Assembly: GCA_963575745.1 (NCBI GenBank)
Contig: CAUYUJ010014541.1
Span: forward strand, 305,835-369,834
Direction: 5' to 3'
Length of the DNA: 64,000 bases
DNA from: Prorocentrum cordatum
Lineage: Eukaryota > Sar > Dinophyceae > Prorocentrales > Prorocentraceae
Under the pieces are notes generated by a model. That model was not told where the DNA came from. It made no database searches and saw only the letters and a list, made by a program, of their open reading frames with translations. Of the stretch, positions 40,541-59,926 are shown one piece after another. Made by a program: the position numbers and the translations under genes. Numbering within the stretch: the first letter of the stretch is position 1; the number at the start of each line of letters is the position of its first letter.

Positions 40541-41830
40541 TTCGCAGCCCCCCCAGGATTGCGAGGTCCCGCTCAGATCTGCGTGGTGCCTCACTCCGCT
40601 GGACCCGCTAGCAGCCTTCGAAAGTAGCGACGGTGTCGCAGATCGCAGCCCCCCAAGGACGGCGAGGTCCCGCTCAGATCTGCGCGGTGCCTCATTCCGT
40701 TGGACCCATCAGCAGCCCTCGAAAATGGCGACAGTTTCGCAGATCGCAGCCCCCCAGGGATTGCGAGGTCTCGCTCAGATCTGCGCGGTGCCTCACTCCG
40801 CTGGGCCCACCAGCAGCCTTCGAAAGTGGCGACAGTTTCGCAGATCGCTATGCTGGCTCCCCAAGCAGCCTTCGAAAGCGGGGACAGTTTTTGCAGATCG
40901 CAGCCCCCCTAGGGACGGCGAGGTCCCGCTCAGATCTGCGCGGTGCCTCACTCCGCTGGGCCCACCAGCAGCTCTTGAAAGTGTGGACTGTTTCGCACAT
41001 CGCAGCCCCCCAGGGACGGCGAGGTCCCGCTCAGATCTGTGCGGTGCCCCACTCCGCTGGACCCACTTGCAGCCCTCGAAAGCGGTGACAGTTTTTGCAG
41101 ATCGCAGCCCCCCCAGGGACGGCGAGGCCCCCCTCAGATTTGCGCGGTGCCTCACTCCGCTGGGCCCACCAGCAGCTCTCGAAAGTGGCGACGGTTTCGC
41201 AGAGAGCAGCCCCCCAGGGACGGCGAGGTCCCGCTCAGATCTGCGCAGTGCCTCACTCCGCTAGACCCACCAGCAGCCCTCGAAAGTGGCGACAGTTTCG
41301 CAGATCGCAGCCCCCCAGGGACGGCGAGGTCCCCCTCAGATTTGCACAGTGCCTCACTCCGCTGGACCCACCAGCAGCTCTCGAAAGTGGCGACAGTTTC
41401 GCAGATCGCAGCCCCCCAGGGATTGCGAGTTCCCCCTCAGATTTGCGCGGTGCCGCACTCCGCTGGACCCACCAGCAGCCCTCGACCGTGGCGACAGTTT
41501 CGCAGATCGCAGCCCCCCAGGGACGCCGAGGTCCCGCTCAGATCTGTTCGGTGCCTCACTCCGCTGGACCAACCAGCAGCCTTCGAAAGTGGCGACAGTT
41601 TCGCAGATCGCAGCCCCCCAGGGACGGCGAGGTCCCGCTCAGATCTGCGCGGTGCCTCACTCCGCTGGACCCACCAGCAGCCTTCGAAAGTGGAGACAGT
41701 TTCGCAAATCGCAGCCCCCCAGGGACGGCGAGGTCCCGCTCAGATCTGCGCGGTGCCTCACTCCGCTGGGCCCACCAGCAGCCCTCGAAAATGGCGGCAT
41801 GTTCGCAGATCGCAGCCCCCCAGGCAAGGC
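40541..41830 (+). repeat. 101-bp tandem repeat array, ~13 units
   Basis: CAGATCGCAG (or a close variant) marks units at 40639, 40740, 40841, 40894 (short 53-bp unit), 40996, 41098, 41200, 41301, 41402, 41503, 41604, 41705 and 41806. The period is 101-102 bp. Each unit has GCCCCCCAGGGACGGCGAGG, CTCAGATCTGCGCGGTGCC and TCACTCCGCTGG. Because 101 is not a multiple of 3, frames drift and the long ORFs over it (up to ~400 codons) are artefacts. The array stops 33 bp before the retrotransposon. Confidence 0.95.
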
Positions 41831-41857: not shown

Positions 41858-41862
41858 GGAGG
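41858..41862 (+). repeat. Target-site duplication GGAGG (left)
   Basis: Directly abuts the TG of the 5' LTR and equals 59922-59926. Five bases is the usual duplication length for copia-type integrases. Confidence 0.85.
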
Positions 41863-42078
41863 TGTGAATTGAACCCGTGTAGTACCCTCATATATACTCC
41901 TTATCTTCACCCTCCTGCACCTGGCCGTTTGGGCTCAGGTATTGGGACTTCCCAAGTACGCTTGGGACAGATCGATCAGACCTATGATCGTGCAGGAGGG
42001 AAAGACATCCATCTATCCCTCCTTCCCTCTACCAACGGACCAGGGGTTCTGCACCCTTGTACTTCAACCCCATACACA
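41863..42078 (+). repeat. 5' LTR (216 bp)
   Basis: Runs from TGTGAATTGAACC to CCCCATACACA. It contains a TATA-like CATATATACTCC near 41889 that could serve as promoter, though the transcription start is unknown. It pairs with 59705-59921. Confidence 0.95.
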
Positions 42079-42143
42079 GGTTATCAGCCCTTTAAAGCTC
42101 ACTGTTCATCGAACCCCGCGTCGCGATCTCGCACGCGGCCTCG
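42079..42143 (+). promoter_or_regulatory. Untranslated leader with possible primer binding site
   Basis: GGTTATCAGCCC starts immediately after the LTR. It resembles the initiator-tRNA-Met type PBS (TGGTATCAG) apart from one inserted T, so the primer assignment is tentative. Confidence 0.3.
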
Positions 42144-44270
42144 ATGGAACCCAAGCGGCGCATGCGCCGTAAGGGGTCCATCGGGGCCTCGCGTCCGAGC
42201 TCTCCGACGGCGCGACGGCTCGGTGATGAGTTGGAGAGCCTTAGTGCGGACTGTGTTGGTGTCCCAGGCCCCCCCCCCCCCCCAGCTCCGACGGGCCCGA
42301 GGCGCGGCTAGCTGCTGAACTTCACCGCAGCGCCGCCCGCGGGGGGACAGGAGAAGGAGTAGGAACAGGGAGGAAGGAGTTCCACACGCCTGCCTTCGAT
42401 CCTCCATCTCCTCCTGAGTCGGGAGCAATCCCAACTGCGTCAGGCGAAAGCCTCACTGGTCCTGATACTCCAGGGCGCTGCCGCGCTAACCGCCGATGGA
42501 CCTCAGGTGCTGGTACCCCCAGCCCTGCGACCGTTCCTGTTGCGGAGCACGTAGCCACCTTCGAGGAACTCAGTAGACCAGTGGCGGCACAGCCGCAGAC
42601 GCAGTATCCCAAGGTATCATCGGATCCGACACCACACACATGGTCCTAGTCGCAGCTCGTCCGCGCGCAACCGTCGTGGGGCCCCAGGCCCATACGGCGA
42701 GAGTAGGTCGAGCCCGCGTACTGCCTCTCAGAGGCCATGCGCTCCCCGTGAGAGGGGGCAGAGGGAAGCTGACGCTCCCCACCTCTCCATCTCAGACGAC
42801 CAGCTGGCGGAAACGTCCGTCGCAAGTGAAATAGCTGAGCTCAGAGACCAGGTTGAAACCTTCGTGTCCAGGCAATGCCCTGGGCCACTGCAGAGCGTTC
42901 AGACGAACGCCGCCGATACTGCAGCCATACGCCACGATCTCGACGGCGCCTTAGGGATCATCGATTCCAGGATTGCCGAAGATCGACGCATCATAGGTGA
43001 ACTGCAGTATCAGGTTGATCGTGAGGTGTCACACTCAGGTGAACGAACGGCGATGGTCGAGAACCTGCGCAACTACCTCGCGCAGATGGAGCAACAGCTT
43101 GTGCTCGTACGAGACACAGGCGTTTCAGCAGTCAGGATCCTCCACGATGAGATCCACGACCAGCTCCGCAACCGACCACCACCAGCCGAGGCCACCGACC
43201 TTGGCGACGTTCAGTCTCAGATCAATGATCTCCGATCCCACATAGACCACACTACGGCGACGCTTCGTAACGAAGCACACACCAACTCGTCGAACCTGAT
43301 CGACATGTTGCAACGTACTGAGAGAGTCATCACTCAAAGGCTTGATGCGACCAACGCTGTCGTGCAGCCACTCGCTAACCGGATCTCTGACATCGAGCAG
43401 CGTTTTCCTGGCGTACAGGACGCCCTGGCAGAGTTGCGTGTCGGACGAGCCCAGACTGATCAGCTGGGTCCTCCTCCCACGGTTTACGATGTCGCCCGCC
43501 TCACTGACAGGTTGCGGGAGGTTGAGAAGGCGGCGCACCACACGCAGTTGGAGCTCTCCCAGGTTATTCGCGAGAGAGATGCTGAGAAAGTACGTGTTGA
43601 GGGGCACCTCGCACGTCTGGAAAGCGAGCTAGAGGCACAAAGCGCCCGTCTCCGAGCATACGAGCAACGACTTGATCGGTACTCACAACGTTCTCGGGAT
43701 ACTGATGAGTACACACGCCAAAAGGTGGCCCAAATACACGAAGACATGACGAGCTGGACGAATCAGCTGATCGACCACACCAACGACACCAGTCTCCACC
43801 TTCGACCTGCAACCGACCTGCATAGGCCGACGGCAGCGTCCGCCGAATCACCACAAGCTTCTGCAGGACATCAACGACATACGTCACCAGGAGCAGCCTC
43901 CGCGGCAGCTTCAGCACAGACACGCCATGTGTCTCCTGTGCGCACAGAACCGACTACTGACGGTGTACCGATACCCTCACAACCACTGTCTGCGGTTTCG
44001 GTCCATACTACAACTCCTATCAAGGAGTCAGACACCGTCCGAGTCCCTGTCTTGCCTAAGATCACGCAGCTGCTCGAGTGGCAGCAAAAGGTACGGAAGA
44101 ACTTTGGGGCCGCCTCAGGGCGACCATCCAAAGCATATGCCTTCCTACGCGTGGCTGAACAGCCCGAGTGTACCTTCGAGGACTTACAGGACAGTGGAGA
44201 CTTTGAGAGCATCGATTGCAAACTCGCTACCGCTCTGAGCGACATCTTATCCTCAGACTTGCGCTACTAA
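42144..44270 (+). pseudogene. gag: Gag N-terminal region (coiled coil), frames disrupted
   Basis: The frame opens at ATG 42144 (MEPKRRMRRKGS), 65 bp after the LTR. It is thrown out of frame at a run of 15 C's (42269-42283), reads on in frame 2 through a Pro/Ser/Thr-rich stretch to about 42645, then returns to frame 0. From there it runs to TAA 44268. The part from 42864 is strongly heptad-patterned (ELQYQVDREV, LARLESELEAQSARLRAYEQ), so a long coiled coil is likely, followed by a Ser/Thr/Pro linker and a globular start (LPKITQLLEWQQKVRKNF). The TAA is in frame with the next ORF and probably replaces a sense codon of an ancestral Gag-Pol. Confidence 0.75.
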
Positions 44271-46667
44271 ATCAGGCTCATCGAAACCAGAGAGCACAAA
44301 GCAGGACGCATGCTCAAAGGACGCCAGATATACTGGCACATCCTACAGTCCTACAAAGTAACAGAGGGTGAGGACGACCTGCACGACTTCGAGCGCCTTA
44401 AAGAACTGAGAATAAGAGATGAAGATTTGCAACGTTTCATTACTGATTGGGACGCTTTACTATTGGAGTGCCGAGAAGCACCCGATCCAAAGATCATGGA
44501 ATCGCTGTTTCGTACACAGATTCGGAGACATGCCTGGATGAAACAAGACATGTACGAGTACCAGCGCATGAAGAGCAGCGACCCGAATCGTACCTATGAT
44601 TGGCTCCGACAGCGCGTCCTGGACGTACTGGAGCTCAAACAATTAGAGACGAATCAAAATAAGTTACGGTACGAACATGAGACACGTTCTCAAGTGAATG
44701 TGTGCGCTGCCTGGAAGAAAGGCAACTGTCGCAATGGTGAACGACGCAAGGCTTTGCATACCTATTCCAGGGATTGGAAGAACAACAGATCTTCCAGATC
44801 ATCGACCGCTGGTGGCAACTCCCGCCGCAACGCGTCCACCCCTGTGAATCACAAGAAGCCAACATCGAAGCCATTTTGCTTCGATTTCGCCAAGCGCAAC
44901 ACATGCAACAGAGGCGACAAGTGCAACTTCCCACACGTTGCACAGTGTAAAGACTTCGCACAGAACAAGTGCCCCAAGGGCGACAAATGCAAATACGCAC
45001 ATCTCACACCTGGTGCGAAGACTCCCGAGCGAAGCCCGAGTCGACCACGTACCTCCAGTCAGGATAGTCGTGGCCGATCACCATCCCGCGGATCAGGAAG
45101 CCAACGTTCTTCACAACGCGGGGGGTTCCGCTACGCAAACGACTTACGCCATGGACGTGGCAACCGACGCCAATACGACCGATCTCGTTCAACATCCAGG
45201 AGGTCTCTAGACTCTCGCAGTCAATCGAGAAGTCGATACGACAGATCTTCGAGATCTACCTCCCGAGGGCGAGACAACCGCGGCGGCGGACGCGGCAGCC
45301 CACGCGGCCGTGATATATCATATGGTAGTGACAAAGGACGTGGCAGACGTTCCCCGAGCCGTGGTTCGTCCCGTGGTTCTCCCCACGCCAGAGCACGTTC
45401 TCCTGCCGACTATCGACTTTCACGCCGTTCCGACCGCAGTTACGTCATTCGTGACAAAACCCTCATGGCCAACACTAAGGTCACTACGACATCTACCACA
45501 ACACGCCGTCGGATACGCTTCGACACACGTAATGTGGAATACTACCTACATACCGTATCTGGCAGGGCCAGATTGGACAAGTGGAAGGAGATGCCGAATG
45601 AGGGTGACATTGTCAATGTACCAGACCCGTTACCACAACGATGGTGGGATCAAAGTGCAGACGCTCTACGAGAATGTCAAAAAGAGGCACAGATGTGGTA
45701 CAAAGATCTATATGACTACCGACACAACAAGGAGTCGGTGGCCACACCAACTGCGATCCGAAACTATGACGACGCTGTCAAGCAGTCATCAAAGACAGCC
45801 CAGACGAAGACAACGACGATGCAAGTCGACGCGCCACGTTCGACTGCTGCATTGACACGATCTTGGGTTCTCGACAGTGGTTCTGCTCATCACATTCACG
45901 GTAAACACGAACTGACGCAGACCGAATTGGATCGCATATCTATTCGCGAAGAGCATATTCTGGAAACCGCCAATGGCGATCGTACTGTCAACGAGCACTA
46001 CGACATACGGCTACCCGAAGTTGGCTTACATAGTTCAGCCCTTGCCTTGCCAGACTGTCCATCATTACTATCAGTTGGGAAATTGATTGAGGTTGATGGC
46101 TTCCGGCAGCTTTGGGATCCTGAGCTGGGATACTTGCTTCAGGATCCGGGGGGCCAATGGTGTAAGATTCCAGTCAACAATAGAGTTCCAGCATTACGAC
46201 TCGACGACCTGACACTGATACCACCACCACGTATATGCACTTCGTCAGCACCCCGACGTCGTCAGCGCAAGCGTTCATCCGCCCGCTCCAACGACATATG
46301 TTGGTGCTGCAAAACTACAGAGCAGTCAACAACTGCAGATGAGCAACGGCCCCACATAGGGACCTGCCCCAAGAGACTACATGTCGGCGAGGGAGGAGGA
46401 GCACGGACCGCCACGGTCGAAGAACCTTCCGACACAAACAAAGACGAGCCTAACGTGGACACACCCACCGACTCGCCTACGTCTCAGACGCAGTGTTCTC
46501 CTCCAACATGCGGGGGGCTAGCAGATACAGCTCAAGCAGATACCGACATACCGACGGAGACGCTCGCACGAATGCACCGCGACAACGATCGCGTTCTTCC
46601 AAACAGACAGAAGAAACCGATTGACCCGATGCATTACATGACCCACAGTCCATCCAAAACACCCTGA
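44271..46667 (+). pseudogene. gag-pol: Gag C-terminal region, CCCH zinc fingers, RS-rich tail, aspartic protease, integrase N-terminus
   Basis: Open in frame 0 right after the TAA (longest ATG frame 44310-46667, 785 codons). The start matches the retrotransposon capsid pattern (GRQIYWHILQSYK, LQRFITDWDALL). Two intact CCCH fingers follow (C-x8-C-x5-C-x3-H and C-x7-C-x5-C-x3-H, 44880-45005), with a degenerate one before them. An Arg/Ser-rich tail runs to about 45450. The protease active site is WVLDSGSAHHIHG with the Asp at 45873. The C-terminus begins the integrase zinc finger (PMHYMTHSP) and ends at TGA 46665, where the sense moves to the +1 frame. Confidence 0.85.
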
Positions 46668-47337
46668 CTGTGAGATTTGTTCTCGCACGATGGCGCAGAA
46701 TGCGCCGTGTCGACGACAGCGCAAACCACATCCACCGGCAGACCCCACCGACGAGGATACAGCCTACGAAGCTTTTGTCCCGAAGAAGTTTGGGGAAGCT
46801 TTAACTGCCGACCATATCGTCCTGGCCAAAGACGATGCCGCAGACAAGCGCGGCGACAAGTATGCACTTGTTGTCCTGGATAGGTACGCCGGCATCTTCA
46901 TGGCCTACCCAGCACTACACAAAGACGCAGTTACCACAAAGGCATCCTTTCAACAGTTCATCGCCGCGAACGATGAGGTGAAGCACATCTATACAGACAA
47001 TTCTGGAGAGCGTCGGAAGGCTTGCCGCCAACTGGGATGGAGACATGACACGAGTACGCCGCATCGTCCACAAACGAATGGATTGATCGAGCGCATTGTC
47101 AAGATTGTCATTCTCGGTGCGAGAGCTGTGTTACATATGTCTGGTCTGGGACATGAATGGTGGAAAGAGGCCATGCAAGACTTTTGCTGTGGACGTAATT
47201 TTGCGCATACATCCGCGGGCGTTGCTGCCCTCAATGAAGAGCATGCCGATAAGACAGCTCATGAAATACGCTTTGGTGAAAGTTTTCCCGGACACTGCAG
47301 CTCGGATTTTCTGGAAATGCCTCAACCCCGAGATTAA
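46668..47337 (+). pseudogene. int: Integrase core
   Basis: Frame 1 resumes as DCEICSRTM, giving the CxxC of the HHCC finger whose histidines are in the previous frame. The catalytic triad is visible: D at 46810 (ADHIVL), D at 46996 (YTDNSGE) and E at 47089 (GLIER). There are only 30 residues between the second D and the E. The phrase STPHRPQTNGLIER is the standard copia motif. After GESFPG (about 47288) frame 1 drifts into nonsense and stops at 47337 while frame 2 continues, so there is a short deletion or frameshift near 47290. Confidence 0.88.
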
Positions 47338-48616
47338 TAACGAGACTGCAAAGTTCAAAGAAAATACTCGGGAAGGGTTATTCATGGGTTACCATTTACA
47401 CTCTGGTGGACGATGGTCAGGTGACTACCTTGTCTTGGACACGGCTACATACGCCAAGGATCCTGATGGGGAACTGTGTCACGTGCACAGAGTCAAAGAC
47501 ATCATCATCCCTGATGGCAAGTTCACCTACCCAGTGAAAGAAGGTACTCTGCGACACCACAACCCTGAGGCACATGATGAGGTCAAGGTATCTACTTCTC
47601 GCCCCTTGGGCGACAAACCAATGCCCGATCCTCCACTTTCCTACCCTAAAGCATGGGATGACCCGTCTATGAGGACAACGGAAGACAACACCGCTGATAT
47701 CCACGCATCGGCCTCTGAAGTTGATGCACCAGCGCCAGAACCCGACTACTGGGAACAGCGCGGATATTGCGTCATCAGACATATTCGTACCCCACGCAAG
47801 AAATTGTTCATCCCGACGGACGACGTCATGAACATACCTGTACCTGTTGATCAACTCGACGTGACACGGGATTTCAAGACGACTTCTACTTTTGAAGGAG
47901 AAAGTGACTTTCGCGACGTTTGGGACGGTGTCAGCGCCAACGACCACAGGGAGCTGAGCGAGCCATGGACCGGCCTGGTTCGATTCTATGAGCTTCCAAA
48001 AATAACGCCAGATGGCAAAATGGTGGTCCGCGGCCGCGAGACACGTGTACAGACTACTACGCGTCCTGACCACATTCTTCCCGAGCATTGGAAAACCTTA
48101 TCTCGTGGACAACAGAAGAAAGAAATCGAGTACGCCGAAGATGTTAAACGAGCTCGTGAAATTCGTGACCGAGCTGCACTTCGAGTGTGGACAAGACAGG
48201 ACAAACAGGTCAACAATTTCCGAACCACTGCAGCCGGCGGACCCACATGGAATACTGTGGAACGAAGGATTACATACGACACTGACAACGGCGCAGTCAT
48301 CCGTGACGAAAACGTCAAGGGCGTGACGAACAAAGAAATACTGTATGCCAAACTACCTGGTGGGCCACGTGACATTATTACGGTACTGTACTACCGCCAA
48401 ACACCACAACAGCACGCTGCAGAAGAACGTGCTTTGGTACTTGTGGATAGTGGAGGAACCGACTTTGGGACCATGAACCCGCTCATACGCCAGTTCACCC
48501 AGTCGGTAGCAATACCCACTATGCCACGTGAGACGACCTACACATCGGCACACAGAGACAAAATCCCCGATTCCTCATGGGCACGCCCAGCCAGTAAGAA
48601 AGAAGTTGCCGCATAA
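47290..48616 (+). pseudogene. pol: Integrase C-terminal region and linker to RT
   Basis: Frame 2 resumes with ARIFWKCLNPE and REGLFMGYHLHSGGRWSGDY, the usual post-catalytic copia segment. A long charged linker follows, with a second DSGG phrase (about 48449) of unknown meaning. The frame ends at TAA 48614 in the middle of the RT entry segment (KKEVAA, stop, PRAQEALRKE), and the same frame continues beyond, so the stop is an internal nonsense codon. The ATG at 47096 lies in overlapping integrase sequence and is not a real start. Confidence 0.8.
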
Positions 48617-50220
48617 CCACGTGCACAGGAAGCCCTACGAAAAGAATACGAGCGACTGGAGAAGAAACAAACATGGATGTTGGAGACCGTCGCAGAAAAA
48701 ACTGATATTGAGTCACAAGCTATTCGCATTGGGACGAAAGTTCATTTCTTCAATATCTTGGAGCTATCTTCAGTCAAACGCGAGGAACTTCCGCCTGATC
48801 TACGTAAATTCAAGGGCCGAGTGGTGGTTCAGGGCAACACAGGCAAAGATGAAACTGGCTTGGCCGCCATATTCGCCGACGCCGCTTCCAGTGCTTCGCA
48901 TATTGAGGCTTCCAAACTTTGCGATGCTACTGCATTTTGGCCACAATATGCGGGCGAACAAAGTGATGCACCTGGAGCCTACACGCAGGCATTATTATAC
49001 GGCGACGGACGAATCGATCCAGTTGATACTTGGATTACCATACCTAAATTGCGACAACCGGCATCCTGGTCAAAATACAAGAATCCAGTGTGCCGATTAC
49101 GATTGGCACTCTACGGACACCCTCTTGCAGGTGTCTTTTGGGAACGAAAGTGTCGTACATGCTTGGAAAGTGTTGGTTTCGAGCCTATTCCAGGATGGGA
49201 ATGCGTATGGAGACACAACAAACTGGGGCTGATACTTTCAGTATACGCGGACGACTTCAAATTAGCCGGACCAGCTAACAATCTACAAGCTGGCTGGGAT
49301 TATATACGCAAAAGCGGTATTGACTTGGATCCACCTACCCCATACTCACAATATCTTGGCTGTGGACAACAGGCATACGATGTACCGCAGAACATCTTCG
49401 ACAAAAGAATGTCTACCATACGACCTATGTTGCCCGTACACAATGCGAAAGACTACAATGCAGCCAAACAAGTTCGTGGAATTCGACATGATATGCTTGG
49501 CTTTACTGATCAGTGCATTGAGCGGTACCTGGAATGCGCTTCCAAGCGCGCCCAGGGACCGGGGTCACGTCGGAAACGGTCCGACTCGCCGAGGACTTCG
49601 CTATCCAAATCGCCTGCATCCTCCGGGTCGGTCGCCAGACCTACTAGCGTGCTCAACGCACGGCCACGATCATCCAGCCCAGCAAGATCGGTCGATACGC
49701 CATCTACTACAATAGAATCCATACCAGTTACATACGATGACCTACCTGACGCCGAAACCCCTGGCATCGAGGACACCTCCTTCACCGATTACGATTACTC
49801 CGACGAGGGCATCCTTGGCCAGGACGCGGCGAGTGTACTGATGAAGATTCTCTACCTGGCACGTTGCTGTCGTTTCGATCTTCTACATCCAGTATGTATG
49901 CTAGCCAGAGAAATTACCAAATGGAACACCACGTGTGATAAACGTCTACATCGATTGATATGCTACATCAAAACGACGCGCACACATTGTTTACACGGAT
50001 GGATAGGTGATTCGTCAGACAAGTTATCCATCATGCTCTTCACTGACGCCTCGTTCGCCGATTGCACTACATCATCCAAGTCCACTGCTGGCGTCTTCGC
50101 CGCGCTTATTGGACCCAATACGTTCTTCCCGGTCAACGCTGTGTGTAAGAAACAAACGGTTGTGTCGCATTCATTTACAGAATCCGAGATCGTTGCTCTT
50201 GACTCAGCACTACGACTTGG
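48617..50220 (+). pseudogene. pol: Reverse transcriptase and first half of RNase H
   Basis: Frame 2 continues after the TAA (LRKEYERLEKKQTWM). RT landmarks: KFKGRVVVQG, DAPGAYTQALL, LRLALYGHPLAGVFWERK and the catalytic VYADDF (YADD at 49244-49255). A Ser/Arg/Pro-rich insertion (about 49540-49800) separates RT from the connection region (SVLMKILYLARCCRFDL). RNase H begins with LFTDASFADCTTS and SFTESEIVALDSALRL, giving its first Asp and Glu. Near 50217 the frame shifts: EGLPLLSFWEAV continues in frame 0 while frame 2 runs to a stop at 50404. Confidence 0.88.
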
Positions 50221-50931
50221 AAGGACTACCACTACTCTCATTCTGGGAAGCCGTGGTGGGAGTTGCCAACACATGCAAAGAGAAGAATACTTGCCTGAGT
50301 TGCCAGGGACGCGCCGACACGGCGACGTGTCCGACGTTGGCCGCCAAAAAGAAGCGCAAGCCATCGCCTCGCAAGGCGCCCCCCACAAGGGGATCTTCTC
50401 CTAGCCGTAGGCAACTACCGCTAAATACGGAGTTACCTACGCCTCCAAAGAGGCGTACGATATCCCATGAGGGTACCGTATTGCACGTGGACCCAGAACT
50501 AGCTCAGGAGATCAGTTCTCCCAAAGTGCGTCTTATCGTCCTCGAGGATAACCAGGCCGTGATCAAAAAATGTCCAAAAGGAACGTACACCTGCACTTCG
50601 TCATCTTCATCGTACTCATCGTATCAACCTGGATTGGATATGCGAGACATGCCAACTCGAACATATCGAGCTCAAATATGTAGGTACAAAAGAGCAGATT
50701 GCAGATATGATGACCAAACATTTCGAGCCAAAGAAAGCAGACCTCTGGAGGGACCTCTTGGAACACTCGCTCATCTTTCCCGCTACTCCGGTACAGTGTC
50801 CTCCAAAGAAACCATGGAAACCACCACGAGGGCCTCGGAGGCCCGACGGTTTACCTCATGTTGCAGAACCTCCAAAACTGGATGGATGTCCGGAAGTACG
50901 CAAAATATTTCTCACAGAGAAAGAAAGATAG
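50221..50931 (+). pseudogene. pol: RNase H C-terminal half and end of Pol
   Basis: Frame 0 carries GLPLLSFWEAV, then an insertion with C-x2-C and basic/Ser/Pro-rich sequence, then VLEDNQAVIKKCPKG, the third acidic RNase H motif. Another shift near 50590 moves to frame 1, which reads ICETCQLEHIELKYVGTKEQ and IADMMTKHFEPKK, the usual copia Pol terminus (VxTKExxADxxTK). Frame 1 stops at TAG 50929 and is open again immediately after. Confidence 0.82.
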
Positions 50932-51905
50932 GGCGAGGTAGGATCAGAATGTGGAATGCAGTGCGTTGGACAAGCCAATCACGAGGGCATATGTGCATGT
51001 ATGTACCACATTGGTGTACCCGCCGCAACTACCGGTTCGCGCACGCCTCGTTCGAGAGCCCGTTCCCCGCACGGTAGACAGCCCCGCCATCCTCCCTCAC
51101 CTCCACAGGATACAGAGAGGTCTAGGACACTCATTGTGCGATCATGCCGCAGCAATTTTACGACTCGAGCTACAAAGCTTACAGGCATCTTGTTCGCCGT
51201 GTGCGAGGCACAAATAAGTGAGATCGGTTCTAATCCCGATACCCCCATCCACGAGATGGATCAGGCACAGCCGCTCCACCTCATCGGCTGGCCCATCGGC
51301 TGCGATGCCGAGTGCGACCCGAACGCCAAGGGCGACGACCGCGCTGGCTTCACGTACCACGCTCAAACCGGTCGTCCTCGTGATCCTGATGATGGATATA
51401 TACATATATATATATATATACGTACATCAGCGGCGCGCTGATCGCAGTGCAGACTTTGATCTCCGCGTACCCGACGAATCCACTATTCGAGAAATTGCCC
51501 GCTCTGCGTCCGCCGACGCCAAGAGTTGGATCAGCGAAACTGGTGGATCAGTCGGCGGCGACGCCAACTACGAGTACAGCACGTTTACGGCTACACCATG
51601 GCTGTCTTTCATGAGGGCTATGTGCGTGATTTCCAGCCTTTTCACTCGTAACCCGTCTGTACAAGAAAGTGTTCGTGTTTTACATGATCATTTGAACGCA
51701 GTGATCCCAGGAGCGCACCGCAAGTGCCCGCCAATGGAACTTACGACGATGATATTGAAGACGGAGTGGATGATGATTCACAACGATTGGTCCAAAATTG
51801 GCAGTGCAATACTGGGACAATATGCCGAGGACAGCGTTCAGGATACAAAACACTACTATGGAAATGGTCTTTGTGCACCTTCTGATGTATACAGCAATGG
51901 ATTGA
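50932..51905 (+). pseudogene. Post-Pol leader of the 3' cargo ORF, frameshifted
   Basis: Frame 1 stays readable after the TAG (CVGQANHEGICACMYHIGVP, then an Arg/Ser/Pro-rich stretch, then HLIGWPIGCDAECDPNAKGD) until a TA repeat at 51395-51421. After that, frame 2 becomes the sensible one (RVPDESTIREIARSASADAK, TATPWLSFMRAMCVISSLF, HKCPPMELTTMILKTEW-like). Near 51900 it hands over to frame 0, which begins the 1418-codon ORF. The Cys/His spacing at 50965-51000 could be a zinc-binding motif but matches no family I can name. Confidence 0.55.
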
Positions 51906-54900
51906 TTGACAACTCCATGCTATGCTTCTAAACTTGATCGTGTAACGATCAAGTTACCCACACGCCCACCTGGCTTAGCCAGGACATCAGATACTTCGGG
52001 ACACGTCGGGCACGTTGTTGAAGATAATTGGGTCACCGAAATGCGAGCATTTTCCGACATTTACCAGACATGCAAATTCCGCCGCAAGCTCAGCACATGG
52101 CTGACTGCACGCGGAGGTTTCGGAGGTACCGGATCATACTCCAAGACGGCGGCAACACCATCCGATCGCCCAGAAGGCTGGCAGGCAATATCAGAGCACG
52201 ACGAGACTATGACAAGTACTTATCGTTGGCAACCATACAACGAGGGCAATGTCTTCATTGGCGAGGCCCCCGCTGAGACTGACCCTGGTCTTACTCCTGG
52301 TCCTGATATTGACCCACTCGAGCTTGAACAAGCAAAGTACAGCGCGTTTTGTGGTGGTCGTTTGGTTTCTACTCTTCTTTCAGATAATGGGTGGTATTCA
52401 CTCGTACAAGAAGATCTGGGACTTCTCTTGCATCATGCCTTTGGTCCATCGGGGCATGCATACAAATGGACCAACTTGTACACCGATTCAACATGGATTA
52501 TGCATCCCAAGAAAGGGGCCAAGGGTGCAAAGCACAAGAAGTACCCAAGTCACGGCTTTGACGAGCTCAACAGTGCACGGAAGCGAGACCATCTCGCCAA
52601 AGTATCACATGTTGCTCTTGTACCGTTATTTATGCCGTGCCTCAATCGCGCGGAATGCATGGGTGGCGCTACCCTCGAGCATTTGTCGACCATCATACGC
52701 GACGACATCATGATGTGGGCATTCTCCTTTGGCAATTACAAAGAATGGTTCAAACAGAACGACACTCCGATCGGCCAAGATTGCATTCAATTGCCAGGGG
52801 CTGGTGGAGACACCCGCTATGGCATGGCAGAACTGCGTGAACAGCGTACGCAGACACAGGAGAGCCGTACCACAGCTATTCTCAATAACCAGTTTGAGTC
52901 CACCCTCGAGCAGCGCAACATGATCAAGATGATCCGCGAGGCCAGAGGCCTCATGTTACACAGTGACAATGCCTCCATCAAAAGGTGGCGTGAATTAAAC
53001 GAGGTCATCTGGAGTTCCTGGGCCAATGATTTTCCTGCATATGTGAAACAAAGACACTATTGCAGAGGCCTCAGTGCCATGGTGGTATGGAGCGCGAATG
53101 ACATCGCATGTGCCAACCACGGACAGAACACCGTGGACATGCGTCGTCACCAGGATCGCGCACCTACTGCTGTGCGCGAGCTCCAGAAAATGGAATGCGA
53201 GGGCGGCGTCCCGACGCTCATGCCAGTACACGTACAAGTGGATGTATCACGTTTTGTCGATGTGATGCAGTATTTCCGCTGCCCCACGGTCATGGGGCCT
53301 GGCAAAGCAGCGCAGTGGGGCGTGCACCCGAACTTTGATTACCACACGGACGACTTGATCAGGATTATGCAGAATCGTGGTATTACAGTTCTTCCATCAG
53401 ACCACTGGATAGAAGCGTACGATAGAATCACTCCACAAGATTGGCATGCAAAACAGAACAACCACAACATGACGATGTTTACGACGCAGTTCTGCGACGC
53501 GGTATGCCATCGTAACTTCTGTGCTTTGATCCAGTCACTGCCTTCTCAGCCGTATCCATTCAGGCCTCCCATACTGACTCCCGTCACGGACGAGCAAGCC
53601 TACACACAGGCCAAGGAGATCATGGAGGCTCTCGACTTCAGAGAAAGGATGACAAACGAATGGAAGAGAGATCTCAGCCTCACGACGCTGATGACACAGA
53701 CGGCAGGCGAGATGGCTCATTGTGCGTGGATGGCATCATGTGCCGATGGTACGCTGCCGGCATCACTGCCTGCTACCGCAGGCGACACAAGCGTACCTAT
53801 TCCTGGAATTCCGATACAGCCACCAGCACTTGATCCTGGCGAGCCGAACAAGGCTATTCCGGAAAACGATCCATTTGGTCTTGCATACGACGACTTATTC
53901 AAGTACCTCTTGCTGTTGATCAACGACTACCCTGGGGCATGGGCATCCTGGGATTCAGTCGAGAAACAAGAGCTCCTCCACCCCAAGATCATCAAAACAG
54001 TTGATGATGCACATGCTGTTACTTGGGTTGTGCTTGAGCAGCTTCTACAGCAGATTACTGACTTGGATGGAGACGATAACGCGACCAAATCACGACTCAT
54101 TGCAGAAGGCAACAGGTTGAAATCTCACTGCATCGGCCCTGCTGCCGAGAACCAACAGACCATCGAAGCATGCAAAACATTCTTCAGACAGAATGCACTG
54201 GATCGCGTGGCATTGGGATACGATCCCGACGTTCCGACTTCAGTGTGGCGCGCGGCGGCCGATGCTGACCAGCCAGCACCACCAGGCCCATTGCCTGAGC
54301 CACTGCAACCCGGCCCGCAACCGAAAGCCGTGCCAAAGACATCGGCTCCTGGCCCACCCCTACACCGTACGCCAGCAGACCAGCAGCCAGCAGATCAGCT
54401 CCCGAAAGCCGAGGCAGTCCCGATCCCAGACGACGGCACTGACCTAGATGCTATGGAGCTGGAGGCAACTCCTGCCGACAACGACCCTTCTCCACGCGAG
54501 ATGAATTTATTGTCATGGCAGGACAGCTGCGAGCGTTCTGTGTACGAGGACATCAGCCAGGTCGGGATGTTCGATAACGCATGCACTATTCGAGAGTACA
54601 AGCTGCAAGCAGGAATCAAGGACGACCATCCATACGTTTCTCCAGTATTGCGGGGTACATCCGCGGTCAATGGATTCGCTTGCCTGCAAGACGATGAATG
54701 GTTCGATCAATTGCAACATGACGATTGTGTGATAGCTCATGCTCCTGATATTGCACAGTCTGGTTGCTTCCCAGAATGGAAATGGATATCGTTACCACAT
54801 TACGACGACGTACGTTATGGTCTTGACTTACTTGATGAGTGGCTCGGAGAACCCGAATACATGAGCAAAGACAGCACGACGATGTTACGCCACGAGATCC

Positions 54901-56162
54901 ACTACAAGAAGTTCTACATCAATCAATTTCACGATCGACGTATCAACATTTGGCCGAAGACAACAGATCGTGAGTGGAAGATCCCAAGTAATTGGAAATC
55001 CTTTCAGGAGATGGTCCAATGGAAATTTGGTGACCGTAAAAACCACAACGGACCCTCCATGGATGCGGCCATGACGCACTTCAAGAAAGATGGTGAGAAA
55101 GATGGGTATCCCGATTGGAACGATTATTACCCGATCTTCATCATTCGTGCGTTCCAGAAACATATTGACCCGCAGAAGAATCGGATCGAGATATACGCCA
55201 AACCAATTCCCGAGGGCGGTGATCCAAGCTGTTTCGATTGGAACAGCGTTATTGCTATTCGATGTGTTGGAGGCCACAGCTGCGTCAACCCACTTTCCAA
55301 ACCATGGAATATGGGCTGGGAGAGCCTACAATGGACAGACGTGAAATACCTCCACCATGGCACGACATTCCGTGCTTGGCGCAACATCCTCAAGACAGGG
55401 ATCATTCCAGGCTGCGTCGATCCATCTTCTCAGAGAGACAAGCATCATAAACCATCACAACGCACGGAGGCATTCTTCAGTTCCAGCACATATATAGACA
55501 CTGCCCAGAAGAATCCCCACACCTCGGTACAGTCATACAAGTTCAATCACTACAAGAACGAGGTCGAGCTGGTGATCAACATGGAGATCGCCACTAAAGC
55601 TGGTTGCAGATTTTGGTTGGGCGCTCAAGGCGCTATTATGACAGAGGACGTGGTTCCAGCAGCGGCAGTCATTGCAATTCGCCGTCTCCAACCACGCCAC
55701 GTGCACGGCCAGCAGATATGGCCGGGGGGCCCTCCCTGGGACTATCCGCCGTTGGCCGCGAGACAACCATTGAGCAAGTACGAAATTTGTGCCTATCTTC
55801 CTGGACAAGAGTTCATCGATAACCCTCCTGGGATTACACCAGCCGACATGGATCACGACATGGATCAGCAGCCAAGGACGCCGTCAGCATCAGCATCTTC
55901 GGCTCAGCGACCGATTGCCCCTCAGCTGGGGGCAACCCCTGCTGGCCGCATATATGGCGCCGACGCCTTGGACGAACAAATGGTCCGTGCTATGATCGAC
56001 GACACCGAACACAAAACAGAGGATAAAGAATGGTTAATTGCTATGTCATACTGCCGAGAGGCTCTTCAACCCATTACATCAAATATTCCACAGAAAGATT
56101 GGGATCGTCGGCCTATCTTTAATGATGTTCGCATGGGGGACTTCATTGTTACCAAGAATTAG
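51906..56162 (+). CDS. 3' cargo ORF 1 (1418 codons) with Tpt1/KptA-like RNA 2'-phosphotransferase domain
   Basis: Uninterrupted frame 0; the first ATG is at 52041, but it probably continues from upstream coding sequence. Residues counted from 51906: 1-600 unknown, including LPGAGGDT (296), VVWSANDIA (N398, D399) and PQDWH (512-514), a spacing reminiscent of SGNH hydrolases; 760-880 Pro/Asp-rich linker; about 1050-1255 Tpt1-like. There, IAIRCVGGHS (R1119, H1124) matches the IRAxQGHS motif. YLHHGTTFRAWRNILKTG (H1151-T1153) matches LYHGTxxxxxxxIxxxGL. R1186 precedes FFSSS. INMEIATKAGCRFWLGAQG then TEDVVP (1246-1251) matches the C-terminal strand order of that family. The N-lobe Arg-His pair of classical Tpt1 is not evident. 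Known Tpt1 moves an RNA 2'-phosphate to NAD+. Here activity is inferred, not shown. Confidence 0.8.
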   Translation: MTTPCYASKLDRVTIKLPTRPPGLARTSDTSGHVGHVVEDNWVTEMRAFSDIYQTCKFRRKLSTWLTARGGFGGTGSYSKTAATPSDRPEGWQAISEHDETMTSTYRWQPYNEGNVFIGEAPAETDPGLTPGPDIDPLELEQAKYSAFCGGRLVSTLLSDNGWYSLVQEDLGLLLHHAFGPSGHAYKWTNLYTDSTWIMHPKKGAKGAKHKKYPSHGFDELNSARKRDHLAKVSHVALVPLFMPCLNRAECMGGATLEHLSTIIRDDIMMWAFSFGNYKEWFKQNDTPIGQDCIQLPGAGGDTRYGMAELREQRTQTQESRTTAILNNQFESTLEQRNMIKMIREARGLMLHSDNASIKRWRELNEVIWSSWANDFPAYVKQRHYCRGLSAMVVWSANDIACANHGQNTVDMRRHQDRAPTAVRELQKMECEGGVPTLMPVHVQVDVSRFVDVMQYFRCPTVMGPGKAAQWGVHPNFDYHTDDLIRIMQNRGITVLPSDHWIEAYDRITPQDWHAKQNNHNMTMFTTQFCDAVCHRNFCALIQSLPSQPYPFRPPILTPVTDEQAYTQAKEIMEALDFRERMTNEWKRDLSLTTLMTQTAGEMAHCAWMASCADGTLPASLPATAGDTSVPIPGIPIQPPALDPGEPNKAIPENDPFGLAYDDLFKYLLLLINDYPGAWASWDSVEKQELLHPKIIKTVDDAHAVTWVVLEQLLQQITDLDGDDNATKSRLIAEGNRLKSHCIGPAAENQQTIEACKTFFRQNALDRVALGYDPDVPTSVWRAAADADQPAPPGPLPEPLQPGPQPKAVPKTSAPGPPLHRTPADQQPADQLPKAEAVPIPDDGTDLDAMELEATPADNDPSPREMNLLSWQDSCERSVYEDISQVGMFDNACTIREYKLQAGIKDDHPYVSPVLRGTSAVNGFACLQDDEWFDQLQHDDCVIAHAPDIAQSGCFPEWKWISLPHYDDVRYGLDLLDEWLGEPEYMSKDSTTMLRHEIHYKKFYINQFHDRRINIWPKTTDREWKIPSNWKSFQEMVQWKFGDRKNHNGPSMDAAMTHFKKDGEKDGYPDWNDYYPIFIIRAFQKHIDPQKNRIEIYAKPIPEGGDPSCFDWNSVIAIRCVGGHSCVNPLSKPWNMGWESLQWTDVKYLHHGTTFRAWRNILKTGIIPGCVDPSSQRDKHHKPSQRTEAFFSSSTYIDTAQKNPHTSVQSYKFNHYKNEVELVINMEIATKAGCRFWLGAQGAIMTEDVVPAAAVIAIRRLQPRHVHGQQIWPGGPPWDYPPLAARQPLSKYEICAYLPGQEFIDNPPGITPADMDHDMDQQPRTPSASASSAQRPIAPQLGATPAGRIYGADALDEQMVRAMIDDTEHKTEDKEWLIAMSYCREALQPITSNIPQKDWDRRPIFNDVRMGDFIVTKN
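56160..56162 (+). other. In-frame TAG between the two cargo ORFs
   Basis: The frame is open on both sides: 1418 codons end in ...IVTKN, and after TAG GGA the same frame runs 22 codons to ATG 56229 and on for 928 codons. Either a nonsense mutation or a leaky stop. Confidence 0.8.
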
Positions 56163-56228
56163 GGATCTACCAATTGTTATCATTATGACACTCACTACCC
56201 CAAGGGCAATCACAACACCAAGGTCCTC

Positions 56229-59015
56229 ATGAACAAGGGCCACATATACGGCCCAATCATTCATTTCGGAGTCTTTGACAAGTTCTTTGCGGTACAAATA
56301 CCTATCCTCAACTACGGTTTACGATGGGTAAACATATGGTACAATGACAAAAACATGCCTCTCAAGGGCGTTGTCTTTGCTTTGCCAGTTCGTGCCGCCA
56401 TTGACCGGACAAATATGAAAACTGCCCTGGAAGGACCATCCTCATGCCGTGACAAAATACTTCAGCATAACTCAGATGGTGATCTGCCATATCTCGGCAT
56501 GCCGAGCATTTATAAGCCACGTATCCCACGTACACCGACCAGACGGCCCGCTCTTCGGACACCCGATCCCGAAGGGCTGGTGGCCACACCTGCCGAGGAC
56601 ACTGCTCCCGCGGACGATGGACCCCAACAAAAGGCAGGCCAATCTGCTGAACCTCTGGTTGCCGTTATTGTGGATATATCAAACATACAACTCACTGCCG
56701 AGGAAAAGACGGCAAATGACAATATGAAAGCAGATCTATCAGCAGAGATCCAAGCAGATGAGCACGTCGACGCGAGCATCCTCGACAATATTATTGACCC
56801 GCCAGAAGACTCCCTCAACCACCCCGACTACGACCCAGAGGAGGACGCAAGGTGGACCAGACAATCATACGACCACCGCATATACCGCTGGGTGTCGGAG
56901 CCTTTGGTAGACTCACCTATGATAAAGGTGAAACAAATCATTGAGGTGCACACTGGCGTGGACAGATTTGTGGTGGATAAAGTACAGTCGTACTCACAAT
57001 TTGGCGTTCAAGTCGGATCCAAAGCATGGAACGCAGAGACATACTATTTGGATTATAATCATACCCACAAATGGGCACGTGACTTACCAATTTGCAGTGC
57101 AGATAGCTTCTTCAAAAAGCTGGTACACGACCTGGACCCAGGGACCATCGAGGAGTCGACTACAGGCGTCTTCCACTGGATCTCTAAAGTGTATCAAAAC
57201 ATATTGCTGGACAGTATTGGGGAGCTCCGTGACTTCACAAAAGATGCTATTCATCAAAATCATCCCGCACTCCAAACGTTGCGTGATCTATTTACACATT
57301 GCATCAATACATTCGGCAATCCAGGCTTCCCCGTATGGACGGAGCTGGTGGAAACACCTGCCGCGCCACGTGACCCAGGCGCGGAGCAGGACATTCCCCA
57401 GGACCCAGGCAGCATTGCATCCGCAGCTCCTGATCAAGAAACCATGGTACGGATGATAGCCGAACAGAAGGGAATCAACCGCGAGGAGGGCGACAACGAG
57501 TCCGCCTTGCAGGAAGAGGCTCGCCGTATCCGTACAGAAAACGTATGCCATGGTGATACGCAGGACGCGGACAACGACACGACCGAGCGCATAGGACTGC
57601 CAGGGGAAAGATTGTCAAGGATCGAGATCGAGGGAATGAGCAGATCAATCGCTTCCCGACCGAATGCCGAGATCGACCGCGATGCCATGGATCAGATCGG
57701 CCGCAGTCTCGCTCGTGGTCAGGAGACCCAATGGGGATCCCGTGAGCATCCCACGATTGACGGAGCCCCAGAAACTATCCAGCATGATATCGCGCGATGT
57801 CGGAATTGCGATCGCATCTTATCCCTAGGCATCGTTACATATGAAGGTACCCTTTGTGACATCTGCTGGCAGTACACTGTTGCCGTAGGTGCTACGGGTA
57901 AAAGTACTGCTGTCGAGACCGACCTGGCATACCTCCAGAAGCTGACCCACTGGATCAAGACGACGCTCTCCCAGGACGACATTACGAGGTACATGAGAGA
58001 CGGAGCGCAAGTCATCATGACGGGTAAGCGCTCTTTTCCGGGCAATGAGAAAGATGCGCTGAGGAGAATGGCCAATTCCGCTAGGAAGAGGTATCAGAAG
58101 TGGGTCGGCTTTGGCTCCCCTCCTGCGCACGAGTGCAGACGGATGGGCGAGCGCGAAGACGACAGACCTCTATACCATCCATATGCCAATCTCGTTCAGC
58201 GCTTTCTCAAGGATTTGAAGTTTCACCACCAAATGACAGGCGCCCGTGTTAATGTGGGCAAGAAGGCTTGGACCGTTGAGGACATGCGCGATGCATGTGA
58301 AATCCTCGAGACCAGCATCAGGACTGGCCAAGCCGGTCGGAAGAAATGGTGGTTGAACGAAGGCAGACTCGACAGACGCACGCGGCAGGCACGCGGACTT
58401 GTCACGATTGCCCTCCCCAGGAGGGATGGCGCCCGTGAGAAAGTCATGCAGCGCAAGCTTGCCGCGCTTGCTCACGGGTTGATGGGTTCTGCCTTGGGTT
58501 CCACCGACCAGAGGGGGGTTGATTCAGGGATGAGAACCGATCCGATCGAACCTGATACGTACTCCCAGCGCTCTGATGATGCCATGGAGCCACGCCATCC
58601 GCGCCATCCGCCGCCGCCGCGCCCTGCCCCTGGCGATGCTGCACGGTCTAGCGCCTCTGGCGCGGAAGACCACGCGCCCGCGGGGCCGCGCGGCACTGCA
58701 GCGCAGCGGCAGGACAGCGATGACAGCTACAGACCTCGCGCCAAGAGGGCGCGCACGACAGACTACGCCGCCTGGTGGCGCGACGACCTGGAGGACAGCC
58801 GTTGGGGCCTCAGGTACTGGAGCTACTACATCAACTGCTGGATCTATATAGCGCTCAACAACGACGAGTTCGTATACATCCGTGACATCCAGTACAACAA
58901 GTGGTTTCGCCACTGGATCCCGAGGACATCTTGTGGGGCGTTCACGACGAGCTACGTGACGTACGATGGCCACAGGAAGTGGGACCGCAGGTTCTACGAG
59001 AACGGCAACACGTAG
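56229..59015 (+). CDS. 3' cargo ORF 2 (928 codons), zinc-ribbon-like protein of unknown function
   Basis: Same frame as ORF 1; the coding pattern extends back to the TAG at 56160, so ATG 56229 may not be a true start. N-terminal ~75 residues are aromatic and hydrophobic (FGVFDKFFAVQIPILNYG). An acidic, Pro-rich linker follows, then a globular region (FGVQVGSKAWNAETYYLDY). A four-cysteine C-x2-C...C-x2-C ribbon sits at C524, C527, C543 and C546 (CRNCDR...LCDIC). A helical basic region includes ARKRYQKWVGFG and KKWWLNEGRLDRR, then a disordered Pro/Ala/Arg tail, and a Trp/Tyr-rich C-terminus (YWSYYINCWIYIALNNDEF). It ends in tandem stops TAG-TGA. No family is recognised. The lysine/arginine-rich parts suggest nucleic-acid contact. 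Confidence 0.7.
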   Translation: MNKGHIYGPIIHFGVFDKFFAVQIPILNYGLRWVNIWYNDKNMPLKGVVFALPVRAAIDRTNMKTALEGPSSCRDKILQHNSDGDLPYLGMPSIYKPRIPRTPTRRPALRTPDPEGLVATPAEDTAPADDGPQQKAGQSAEPLVAVIVDISNIQLTAEEKTANDNMKADLSAEIQADEHVDASILDNIIDPPEDSLNHPDYDPEEDARWTRQSYDHRIYRWVSEPLVDSPMIKVKQIIEVHTGVDRFVVDKVQSYSQFGVQVGSKAWNAETYYLDYNHTHKWARDLPICSADSFFKKLVHDLDPGTIEESTTGVFHWISKVYQNILLDSIGELRDFTKDAIHQNHPALQTLRDLFTHCINTFGNPGFPVWTELVETPAAPRDPGAEQDIPQDPGSIASAAPDQETMVRMIAEQKGINREEGDNESALQEEARRIRTENVCHGDTQDADNDTTERIGLPGERLSRIEIEGMSRSIASRPNAEIDRDAMDQIGRSLARGQETQWGSREHPTIDGAPETIQHDIARCRNCDRILSLGIVTYEGTLCDICWQYTVAVGATGKSTAVETDLAYLQKLTHWIKTTLSQDDITRYMRDGAQVIMTGKRSFPGNEKDALRRMANSARKRYQKWVGFGSPPAHECRRMGEREDDRPLYHPYANLVQRFLKDLKFHHQMTGARVNVGKKAWTVEDMRDACEILETSIRTGQAGRKKWWLNEGRLDRRTRQARGLVTIALPRRDGAREKVMQRKLAALAHGLMGSALGSTDQRGVDSGMRTDPIEPDTYSQRSDDAMEPRHPRHPPPPRPAPGDAARSSASGAEDHAPAGPRGTAAQRQDSDDSYRPRAKRARTTDYAAWWRDDLEDSRWGLRYWSYYINCWIYIALNNDEFVYIRDIQYNKWFRHWIPRTSCGAFTTSYVTYDGHRKWDRRFYENGNT

Positions 59016-59704
59016 TGAGTCGGCCGCCAGGCCCACCGCTCGAAAGGCTTGAACTTCATTATAATACAAATTCGCCTTGAGCGGTGGCCATTATATACTT
59101 CTAGGCCACTTCACTATACAACACAAGTGGCCACACATACACACATATTTTGCGATAACCAAGGCAGCCTCCTAAGGAGCAACGCCAACGGGAGTCGCCA
59201 TATAGAGAATTTATATACATGCAACTCTTCGTGTTCATCAACGCGACCTTTCGTCTGGCCAGACATCCGCTTTGATATATAGACGCGCTTCGTAACACGA
59301 TCGTGCTCATCAACACGATCTCAGAATGCATATACTTTAGAGCCCGATTCCATTGCGTTGAGCATGATCTGACAGCTGGTGGCAACACCTGCCTCGCTTA
59401 GGCGAGGCAGATTATGATGCTGCTTTAACTTGCTCAGATCCTCTTTCTCCGCCCACCCGTGTCTCATTCTTCTCCGCCCTCGAGTGCCGAAGCGTTTTGG
59501 GGGGCGCACCGAGGGGGCACCAAAGCGTGCTTGGCGAAGAAATCGGGGCCCTGGGTGTTCCTTCTTACCTTGCCTTGCAGCTGAGGCTATACAGATTGGC
59601 GCCCAGCTGCCTGATACACTTGAGGATTGAGGAGTAAATGGGTGACGGATTCTCTTCCTCTGTTCCCGAGTCCTACCCTCGCGGGCGGGATTCGGGACGG
59701 GGGG
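59016..59704 (+). other. Element 3' untranslated region with hairpin and polypurine tract
   Basis: No ORF with domain content. CTGCCTCGC-TTA-GCGAGGCAG near 59389-59410 forms a clean 9-bp hairpin. GGGACGGGGGG at 59694-59704, touching the LTR, is the likely plus-strand primer tract despite one C. A/T-rich ATATATA words occur at 59090-59340. Confidence 0.6.
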
Positions 59705-59921
59705 TGTGAATTGAACCCGTGTAATACCCTCATATATACTCCTTATCCTCACCTCTCCTGCACCTGGCCGTTTGGGCTCAGGTATTGGGACTTCCCAAGT
59801 ACGCTTGGGACAGATCGATCAGACCTTTGATCGTGCAGGAGGGAAAGACATCCATCTATCCCTCCTTCCCTCTACCAGCGGATCAGGGGTTCTGTATCCT
59901 TGTACTTCAACCCCATACACA
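59705..59921 (+). repeat. 3' LTR (217 bp)
   Basis: TGTGAATTGAACC...CCCCATACACA. Compared with the 5' LTR by eye there are 7 substitutions (mostly transitions) and one 1-bp indel. Confidence 0.95.
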
Positions 59922-59926
59922 GGAGG
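59922..59926 (+). repeat. Target-site duplication GGAGG (right)
   Basis: Identical to 41858-41862. Confidence 0.85.

Follow-up and report, generated by a model that had tools for sequence, protein, structure and literature searches.

The stretch analyzed here, a 64-kb window of DNA from the dinoflagellate Prorocentrum cordatum (contig CAUYUJ010014541.1; all positions are those of the window), contains a Copia-type long terminal repeat (LTR) retrotransposon. The element is 18 kb long, spans positions 41863-59921, and was analyzed from this one copy (Table 1). From its 5' LTR to its 3' LTR, it carries gag-region open reading frames (ORFs), an integrase, a reverse transcriptase (RT), the end of an RNase H, and two further large ORFs, here called ORF1 and ORF2, in that order. 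The assignment to Copia rests on the integrase preceding the RT and on the RT being of the RVT_2 type. A preliminary description of this DNA had placed a Tpt1/KptA-like RNA 2'-phosphotransferase domain in a 1418-codon ORF of a Copia-order LTR element. The ORF exists, the motifs that had been named occur in it in the claimed order, and the surrounding DNA is bounded by LTRs with a target-site duplication. Tpt1 transfers RNA 2'-phosphates to nicotinamide adenine dinucleotide (NAD+), and some Tpt1 proteins ADP-ribosylate 5'-phosphate ends, as described in PMC6582358. We see about an even chance that ORF1, downstream of Pol, encodes a divergent and probably catalytic domain of the Tpt1/KptA type.

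Table 1. Positions of the element's features within the 64-kb window
Feature	Position	Strand	Remark
Target-site duplication, left copy GGAGG	41858..41862	.	Outer flank of 5' LTR
5' LTR, 216 bp	41863..42078	+	TG..CA
Presumed primer-binding site GGTTATCAGCCC	42079..42090	+	Directly 3' of 5' LTR; without TGG start
gag-region ORFs 42864-44270 and 44310-46667	42864..46667	+	Same frame, single stop between
Integrase core (rve)	46690..47337	+	Pfam E 2.5e-6, under curated cut-off
Reverse transcriptase (RVT_2)	48677..50404	+	Pfam E 7.2e-6, under curated cut-off
RNase H/pol end (..IADMMTKHF.. then stop)	50563..50931	+	By eye; frame differs from RT
ORF1, 1418 codons, carries Tpt1-like domain	51906..56162	+	First codon TTG, after stop
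Whole Tpt1/KptA-like domain	54864..55688	+	Probable N-lobe with inserts, and NAD+ lobe
Probable N-lobe motif SKx5LRH (S987, K988, R995, H996)	54864..54893	+	
QKNRIEI, possible KxR[FY] counterpart (K1091, R1093)	55173..55193	+	By eye
IAIRCVGGHS, third tetrad residue R1119	55251..55280	+	
HHGT, NAD+ adenosine-ribose motif (H1151, T1153)	55353..55364	+	
QRTEAFFSSS, fourth tetrad residue R1186	55458..55487	+	
INMEIATKAGCRFW	55575..55616	+	
TEDVVP	55641..55658	+	
ORF2, 928 codons	56229..59015	+	No family match
Polypurine-tract-like GGGACGGGGGG	59694..59704	+	Directly 5' of 3' LTR
3' LTR, 217 bp	59705..59921	+	
Target-site duplication, right copy GGAGG	59922..59926	.	Outer flank of 3' LTR

Homology and relatives of the ORF1 domain

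Comparisons were made with entire ORF1 and with two pieces of it, one of 293 residues (ORF1 residues 1006-1298) and one of 331 residues (970-1300). The family PF01885 (PTS_2-RNA), for which the Pfam gathering cut-off is 26 bits, was the sole Pfam family at an E value of 10 or lower for ORF1, with a score under that cut-off (E 4.1e-5, 24.1 bits). It was again the only one for the 293-residue piece, this time over the cut-off (E 1.7e-6, 28.7 bits), and it scored over the cut-off with the 331-residue piece as well (E 8.8e-7, 29.6 bits). A 313-residue piece cut within the domain scored 17.4 bits, under the cut-off. The PF01885 match spans profile positions 73-176 of 177, which is the NAD+ lobe. 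A profile from ten Tpt1 sequences gave 23.5 bits for the 293-residue piece and 18.2 bits for ORF1, against 2.6 bits for the best domain-free sequence in a set of 740. Besides ORF2 and the stop-to-stop stretches of the window of at least 80 residues, this set included 300 shuffles, the piece in reverse, and a five-letter dummy.

Profile-to-profile alignment with hhalign, in which each E value refers to one pairwise comparison, gave a probability of 96.5 and an E value of 9e-10 over 113 columns when the domain, represented by three rows, was aligned with ten Tpt1s, and an E value of 2.9e-9 over 100 columns when its sequence alone was aligned with 61 Tpt1 rows. Together with PF01885 and the matches of the 331-residue piece, these alignments support the Tpt1/KptA-like assignment. 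In PHROGs, phrog_5470 (RNA 2'-phosphotransferase) was matched by the 293-residue piece (E 3.6e-4) and by ORF1 (E 0.016); in NCBIfam, the piece matched a Tpt1 model at E 0.054, and ORF1 matched a PspA model at E 2.7. PADLOC returned nothing for three proteins, and a PDB sequence search with the 293-residue piece and with the query A1 returned no match at E values up to 10. Tpt1, whose fold joins a winged-helix RNA lobe to an ADP-ribosyltransferase lobe, was the best match of the predicted structure in a fold search. The rows ranked under Tpt1 in that search include other ADP-ribosyltransferases with a common NAD+ lobe.

The ORF1 domain has in common with the cellular and phage proteins of the Tpt1/KptA/TRPT1 family (PF01885) a homologous NAD+ lobe, the HGT motif, and, in MAFFT alignments, a probable Arg-His-Arg-Arg tetrad. 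It differs from them in carrying about 65 extra N-lobe residues and a longer loop before R1186, in the replacement of several invariant residues, among them an Arg that binds NAD+, and in being embedded in a 1418-codon retrotransposon ORF; compared with eight Tpt1s of cells and phages, the 293-residue piece shows 18 to 27% identity.

Closer relatives were few. The protein search with the 293-residue piece found two matches at E values up to 1 among 172 candidates, P0002 (70% identical over 47% of the query) and P0003 (74% over 24%), both of them EukProt entries labeled Pyramimonas sp., a green alga; the label may come from a contaminant. EukProt entries of this kind are presumably transcriptome-derived, and if they are, relatives of the element are transcribed. 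P0003 extends from the domain almost to the ORF1 C-terminus. Identity in P0002 falls from 75/98 in the core to 18/37 just after it and 7/25 in the linker; the values for P0003 are 30/36 in the core, 23/37 just after it, 29/47 in the linker, and 47/73 in the tail. Such differences in identity point to constraint on the core, with a modest contrast in P0003. A search with ORF1 residues 1000-1310 gave 282 candidates, none at an E value of 0.001 or lower, and IMG/VR scans with the 293-residue piece, A1, the RT, and ORF2 gave no confirmed relative.

Candidate active-site residues

In CthTpt1, the tetrad Arg18-His19-Arg68-Arg121 contacts the junction phosphates, and NAD+ is held by His101 and Thr103 of the HGT motif together with Arg121, Arg139, and Arg140, as described in PMC6333775. 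When the ORF1 domain was aligned with 51 Tpt1s by MAFFT, R1119 faced Arg in 50 of the 51 rows and Lys in one, R1186 faced Arg in 51/51, and H1151-G-T1153 aligned with HGT in every row. For the first half of the tetrad, the preliminary description had stated that the N-lobe Arg-His pair is not evident. That was probably wrong, as residues 987-996 read SKDSTTMLRH, an SKx5LRH motif with the right order and internal spacing, in which L994-R995-H996 stands at the usual Tpt1 distance from a Ser-Lys. The Ser-Lys of Tpt1 contacts the splice-junction base. First spotted by eye, the motif was aligned alike in three MAFFT modes, S987, L994, R995, and H996 facing identical letters in 51/51 Tpt1s and K988 facing Lys in 40/51. 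The pattern SKx5[LIVMF]RH is present in 47 of the 61 Tpt1 rows; among 20000 shuffles each, it appeared in 6 for the segment and in 28 for ORF1. When residues 970-1117 were shuffled and realigned by MAFFT (n = 200), no run gave the full SK..LRH, 3 gave LRH, and 29 gave RH. The Arg-His pair probably sits at R995-H996, and a complete tetrad is supported, though not proved, by these alignments. The domain span given earlier, 55030..55690, probably starts too late, the likelier start being 54864, the first position of the likely Arg-His motif (54864-54893).

Two earlier candidates for the N-lobe residues were dropped. A replacement of Arg-His by Lys-Phe had been drawn from the 293-residue piece, which lacks the SKx5LRH found upstream, and another His, paired with the Arg-His column by MAFFT on the same piece, was given up after SKx5LRH was seen. 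The alignment does not support QKNRIEI as a counterpart of KxR[FY], residues 1092 and 1094 facing gaps in 51/51 rows.

Several observations weigh against a catalytic Tpt1/KptA-type domain. An N-lobe profile gave 2.6 bits for the region, and 8 of 1000 shuffles ranked higher, with scores up to 7.9. In local mode hhalign aligns the NAD+ lobe alone, and in global mode it leaves LRH unmatched. The Arg residues of LRH and IRC lie 124 residues apart, compared with 59 in Escherichia coli KptA, about 65 more. The Pro that stands two residues after the His in 61/61 Tpt1 rows is Ile in ORF1, and MAFFT finds a Pro only at P1017, past an insertion. The predicted structure has a predicted local distance difference test score (pLDDT) below 50 for most of model residues 1-45, around the Arg-His motif at 25-27, and a model built without Tpt1 rows failed (pLDDT 33.8). 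The hhalign, Pro, and pLDDT results reduced our confidence slightly. In the NAD+ lobe, N1214 stands at the position of CthTpt1 Arg139, which is Arg in 51/51 and 61/61 rows; A1189-F1190 replace the Val-His of VHLS and Q1241 replaces the Asn of ENGVWL, each invariant in 61/61 rows; and Gly takes the place of the near-invariant Gln (60/61) before GHS. Neither P0002 nor P0003 covers the Arg-His or the R1119/IRCVGGHS region, and neither alone matches PF01885. The Pol frames are interrupted in this copy, and since the rve and RVT_2 scores also lie under the Pfam cut-offs, its Pol may be nonfunctional.

Some of these points would suit a catalytically dead Tpt1-fold domain that binds RNA or NAD+/ADP-ribose and is retained for a role in packaging or regulation, an alternative that we regard as somewhat unlikely. 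The substitutions N1214, A1189-F1190, and Q1241 at invariant positions are what it would lead one to expect, as are the extra N-lobe residues and an Arg-His pair missed by profiles; however, HGT and all four residues of the tetrad are matched in 50 to 51 of the 51 rows. A Runella Tpt1 with Ala at the equivalent of Arg139, and hence of N1214, retained partial activity at 1 mM NAD+ and none at 0.1 mM, and yeast relying on it was barely viable (PMC6333775). We do not treat N1214 as decisive because of this partial activity at 1 mM NAD+. H1215, which adjoins N1214, faces His in 39/51 rows. In the ORF1 domain, NAD+ binding is perhaps weaker, and activity is plausible.

Possible roles and known parallels

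As possible roles, the preliminary description had suggested repair, capping, or marking of the element's RNA or complementary DNA, or resistance to a host defense. If the domain is catalytic, HGT and R1186 would bind NAD+, while R995, H996, and R1119 would grip the phosphate on the RNA; the phosphate would be passed to ADP-ribose, and a hydroxyl would be left behind. The most likely benefit would be RNA ends made usable again for reverse transcription, the RNA so restored being a primer transfer RNA (tRNA) or broken genomic RNA that either the host or the element had cleaved. Human TRPT1 and Streptomyces coelicolor KptA ADP-ribosylate 5'-phosphate RNA, and TRPT1 needs the same tetrad to do so (PMC6582358); the domain might by that route protect the 5'-phosphate ends of RNA or complementary DNA of the element with an ADP-ribose cap, instead of removing 2'-phosphates. 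Such a cap is distinctly unlikely; the activity is common to cellular Tpt1s, so nothing in the ORF1 data favors it.

A bolder view, by analogy with elements that prime from tRNA fragments, is that the Tpt1-like domain serves as the element's own primer-maturing enzyme, which we judge quite improbable. A subset of Tpt1s reportedly has a terminal 2'/3' phosphomonoesterase activity, to go by a paper's title. If metal-independent RNases cut the anticodon loop, the resulting half-tRNA would carry a phosphate at its 3' end, which a Tpt1 acting on terminal 2'/3'-phosphates would convert to an extendable 3'-OH; if this were true, the element would turn to its own use the cleavage of host tRNAs, which is normally a response to stress or a defense. 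Half-tRNA priming is possible because GGTTATCAGCCC would complement an anticodon arm and not a tRNA 3' end: its reverse complement, GGGCTGATAACC, may be read as a tRNA anticodon arm with stem GGG and loop CUGAUAA, divided CU-GAU-AA. It is a lead only, since the anticodon-loop pattern was found in 287 of 20000 random 14-mers from the window. Drosophila copia primes with a half-tRNA (PMC5371799), and in hemiviruses a short stretch of a tRNA is the primer (PMC8515867). The ends produced by metal-independent RNases carry a 2',3'-cyclic phosphate (PMC9503650).

Retroelements do capture host sequence, but that the domain is a host TPT1 fragment picked up by this copy as a functionless passenger is very improbable, given that two other proteins carry the same core, that P0003 matches the ORF1 sequence to its end, and that the 293-residue piece is so distant from cellular and phage Tpt1s.

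For a Tpt1/KptA-type domain in a Copia-type element, parallels exist for each part. KptA is found, rarely, inside RNA-virus polyproteins (PMC9503650). The viral KptA of RNA and DNA viruses likewise sits on a selfish replicator, in some cases in a polyprotein, whereas the carrier of ORF1 is an LTR retrotransposon; the main text of that paper contains 0 instances of "retrotransposon," "retroelement," or "transposon." Cytosine methyltransferases occur in retrotransposons of Symbiodinium and the charophyte K. nitens (PMC5890265), and a chromodomain and a DnaQ-like exonuclease occur in LTR elements (PMC6338049). As described in these sources, such elements likewise captured and kept an extra domain; the ORF1 enzyme differs in kind and would be aimed at RNA phosphates. 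A literature search on Tpt1, KptA, or TRPT1 with retrotransposons, Copia, LTR, or dinoflagellates, with most subscription journals outside its reach, showed no such element in titles or the starts of abstracts of the papers listed. The combination of Tpt1/KptA with an LTR retrotransposon appears to be new; each part was already known, and no new category is created. Activity of the domain would mean that an LTR retrotransposon retains its own RNA-phosphate enzyme; retroelement biology would then be joined to the NAD+/ADP-ribose RNA-repair network of cells and viruses, and a testable case would be at hand of a retroelement handling cleaved or phosphorylated RNA. The parallel with RNA-virus KptA (PMC9503650) suggests that separate RNA-copying selfish elements acquired the same enzyme.

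The element and its surroundings

The two LTRs are identical in 209 of 217 columns, with 7 substitutions and 1 gap, and both start with TG and end with CA. In the gag region, ORF 44310-46667 contains CCCH zinc fingers in three stretches (Pfam zf_CCCH_4, E 6.9e-11) and, by eye, a copia-protease-like DSG motif; a CCHC knuckle would be usual in a Copia gag, in contrast to the CCCH type here. ORF 42864-44270 has sub-threshold matches only, and its designation as gag was therefore taken from its position. The RT gave at least 95 matches at E values of 0.001 or lower among the 7993 proteins scored in a capped search, many with PF07727; those named by organism among the matches listed were from a Kiritimatiellae metagenome-assembled genome and from Symbiodinium, the latter weak (43% identity over 23% of the query). 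The RNase H end is resembled in protein P0077. With Copia/Pseudoviridae of the genus Hemivirus, as described in PMC8515867, the element has in common the integrase-before-RT order, LTRs with a target-site duplication, and a presumed primer-binding site resembling the complement of an anticodon arm; it differs in its 18-kb length, two large extra ORFs, and gag-region CCCH fingers.

The N-terminal 865 residues of ORF1 have no Pfam family match. An ORF in another frame, 51218-51931, overlaps the start of ORF1, which may therefore originally have started further upstream. In simulations of neutral decay, with substitutions only, ORF1 stayed free of stops in 133/400 runs at 0.65% per site, 20/400 at 1.65% (half the LTR divergence), and 1/400 at 3.3%, so its open frame is only suggestive. 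ORF2 lies in the same frame as ORF1 and is uninterrupted, a single stop (56160-56162) separating the two. It had no match in Pfam, NCBIfam, PHROGs, or PADLOC, and a CxxC..CxxC zinc-ribbon-like stretch was seen in it by eye.

Outside the element, ten long ORFs (eight of them in 1-40000) gave one sub-threshold Pfam match, to an aspartyl protease, and Rfam gave 0 matches in the window at the gathering threshold. Positions 1-40000 hold many trinucleotide and other short tandem repeats, with a G+C content of 50 to 65% per 4-kb step. A tandem array of ~101-bp units occupies 40447-41824 and ends ~40 bp before the 5' LTR.
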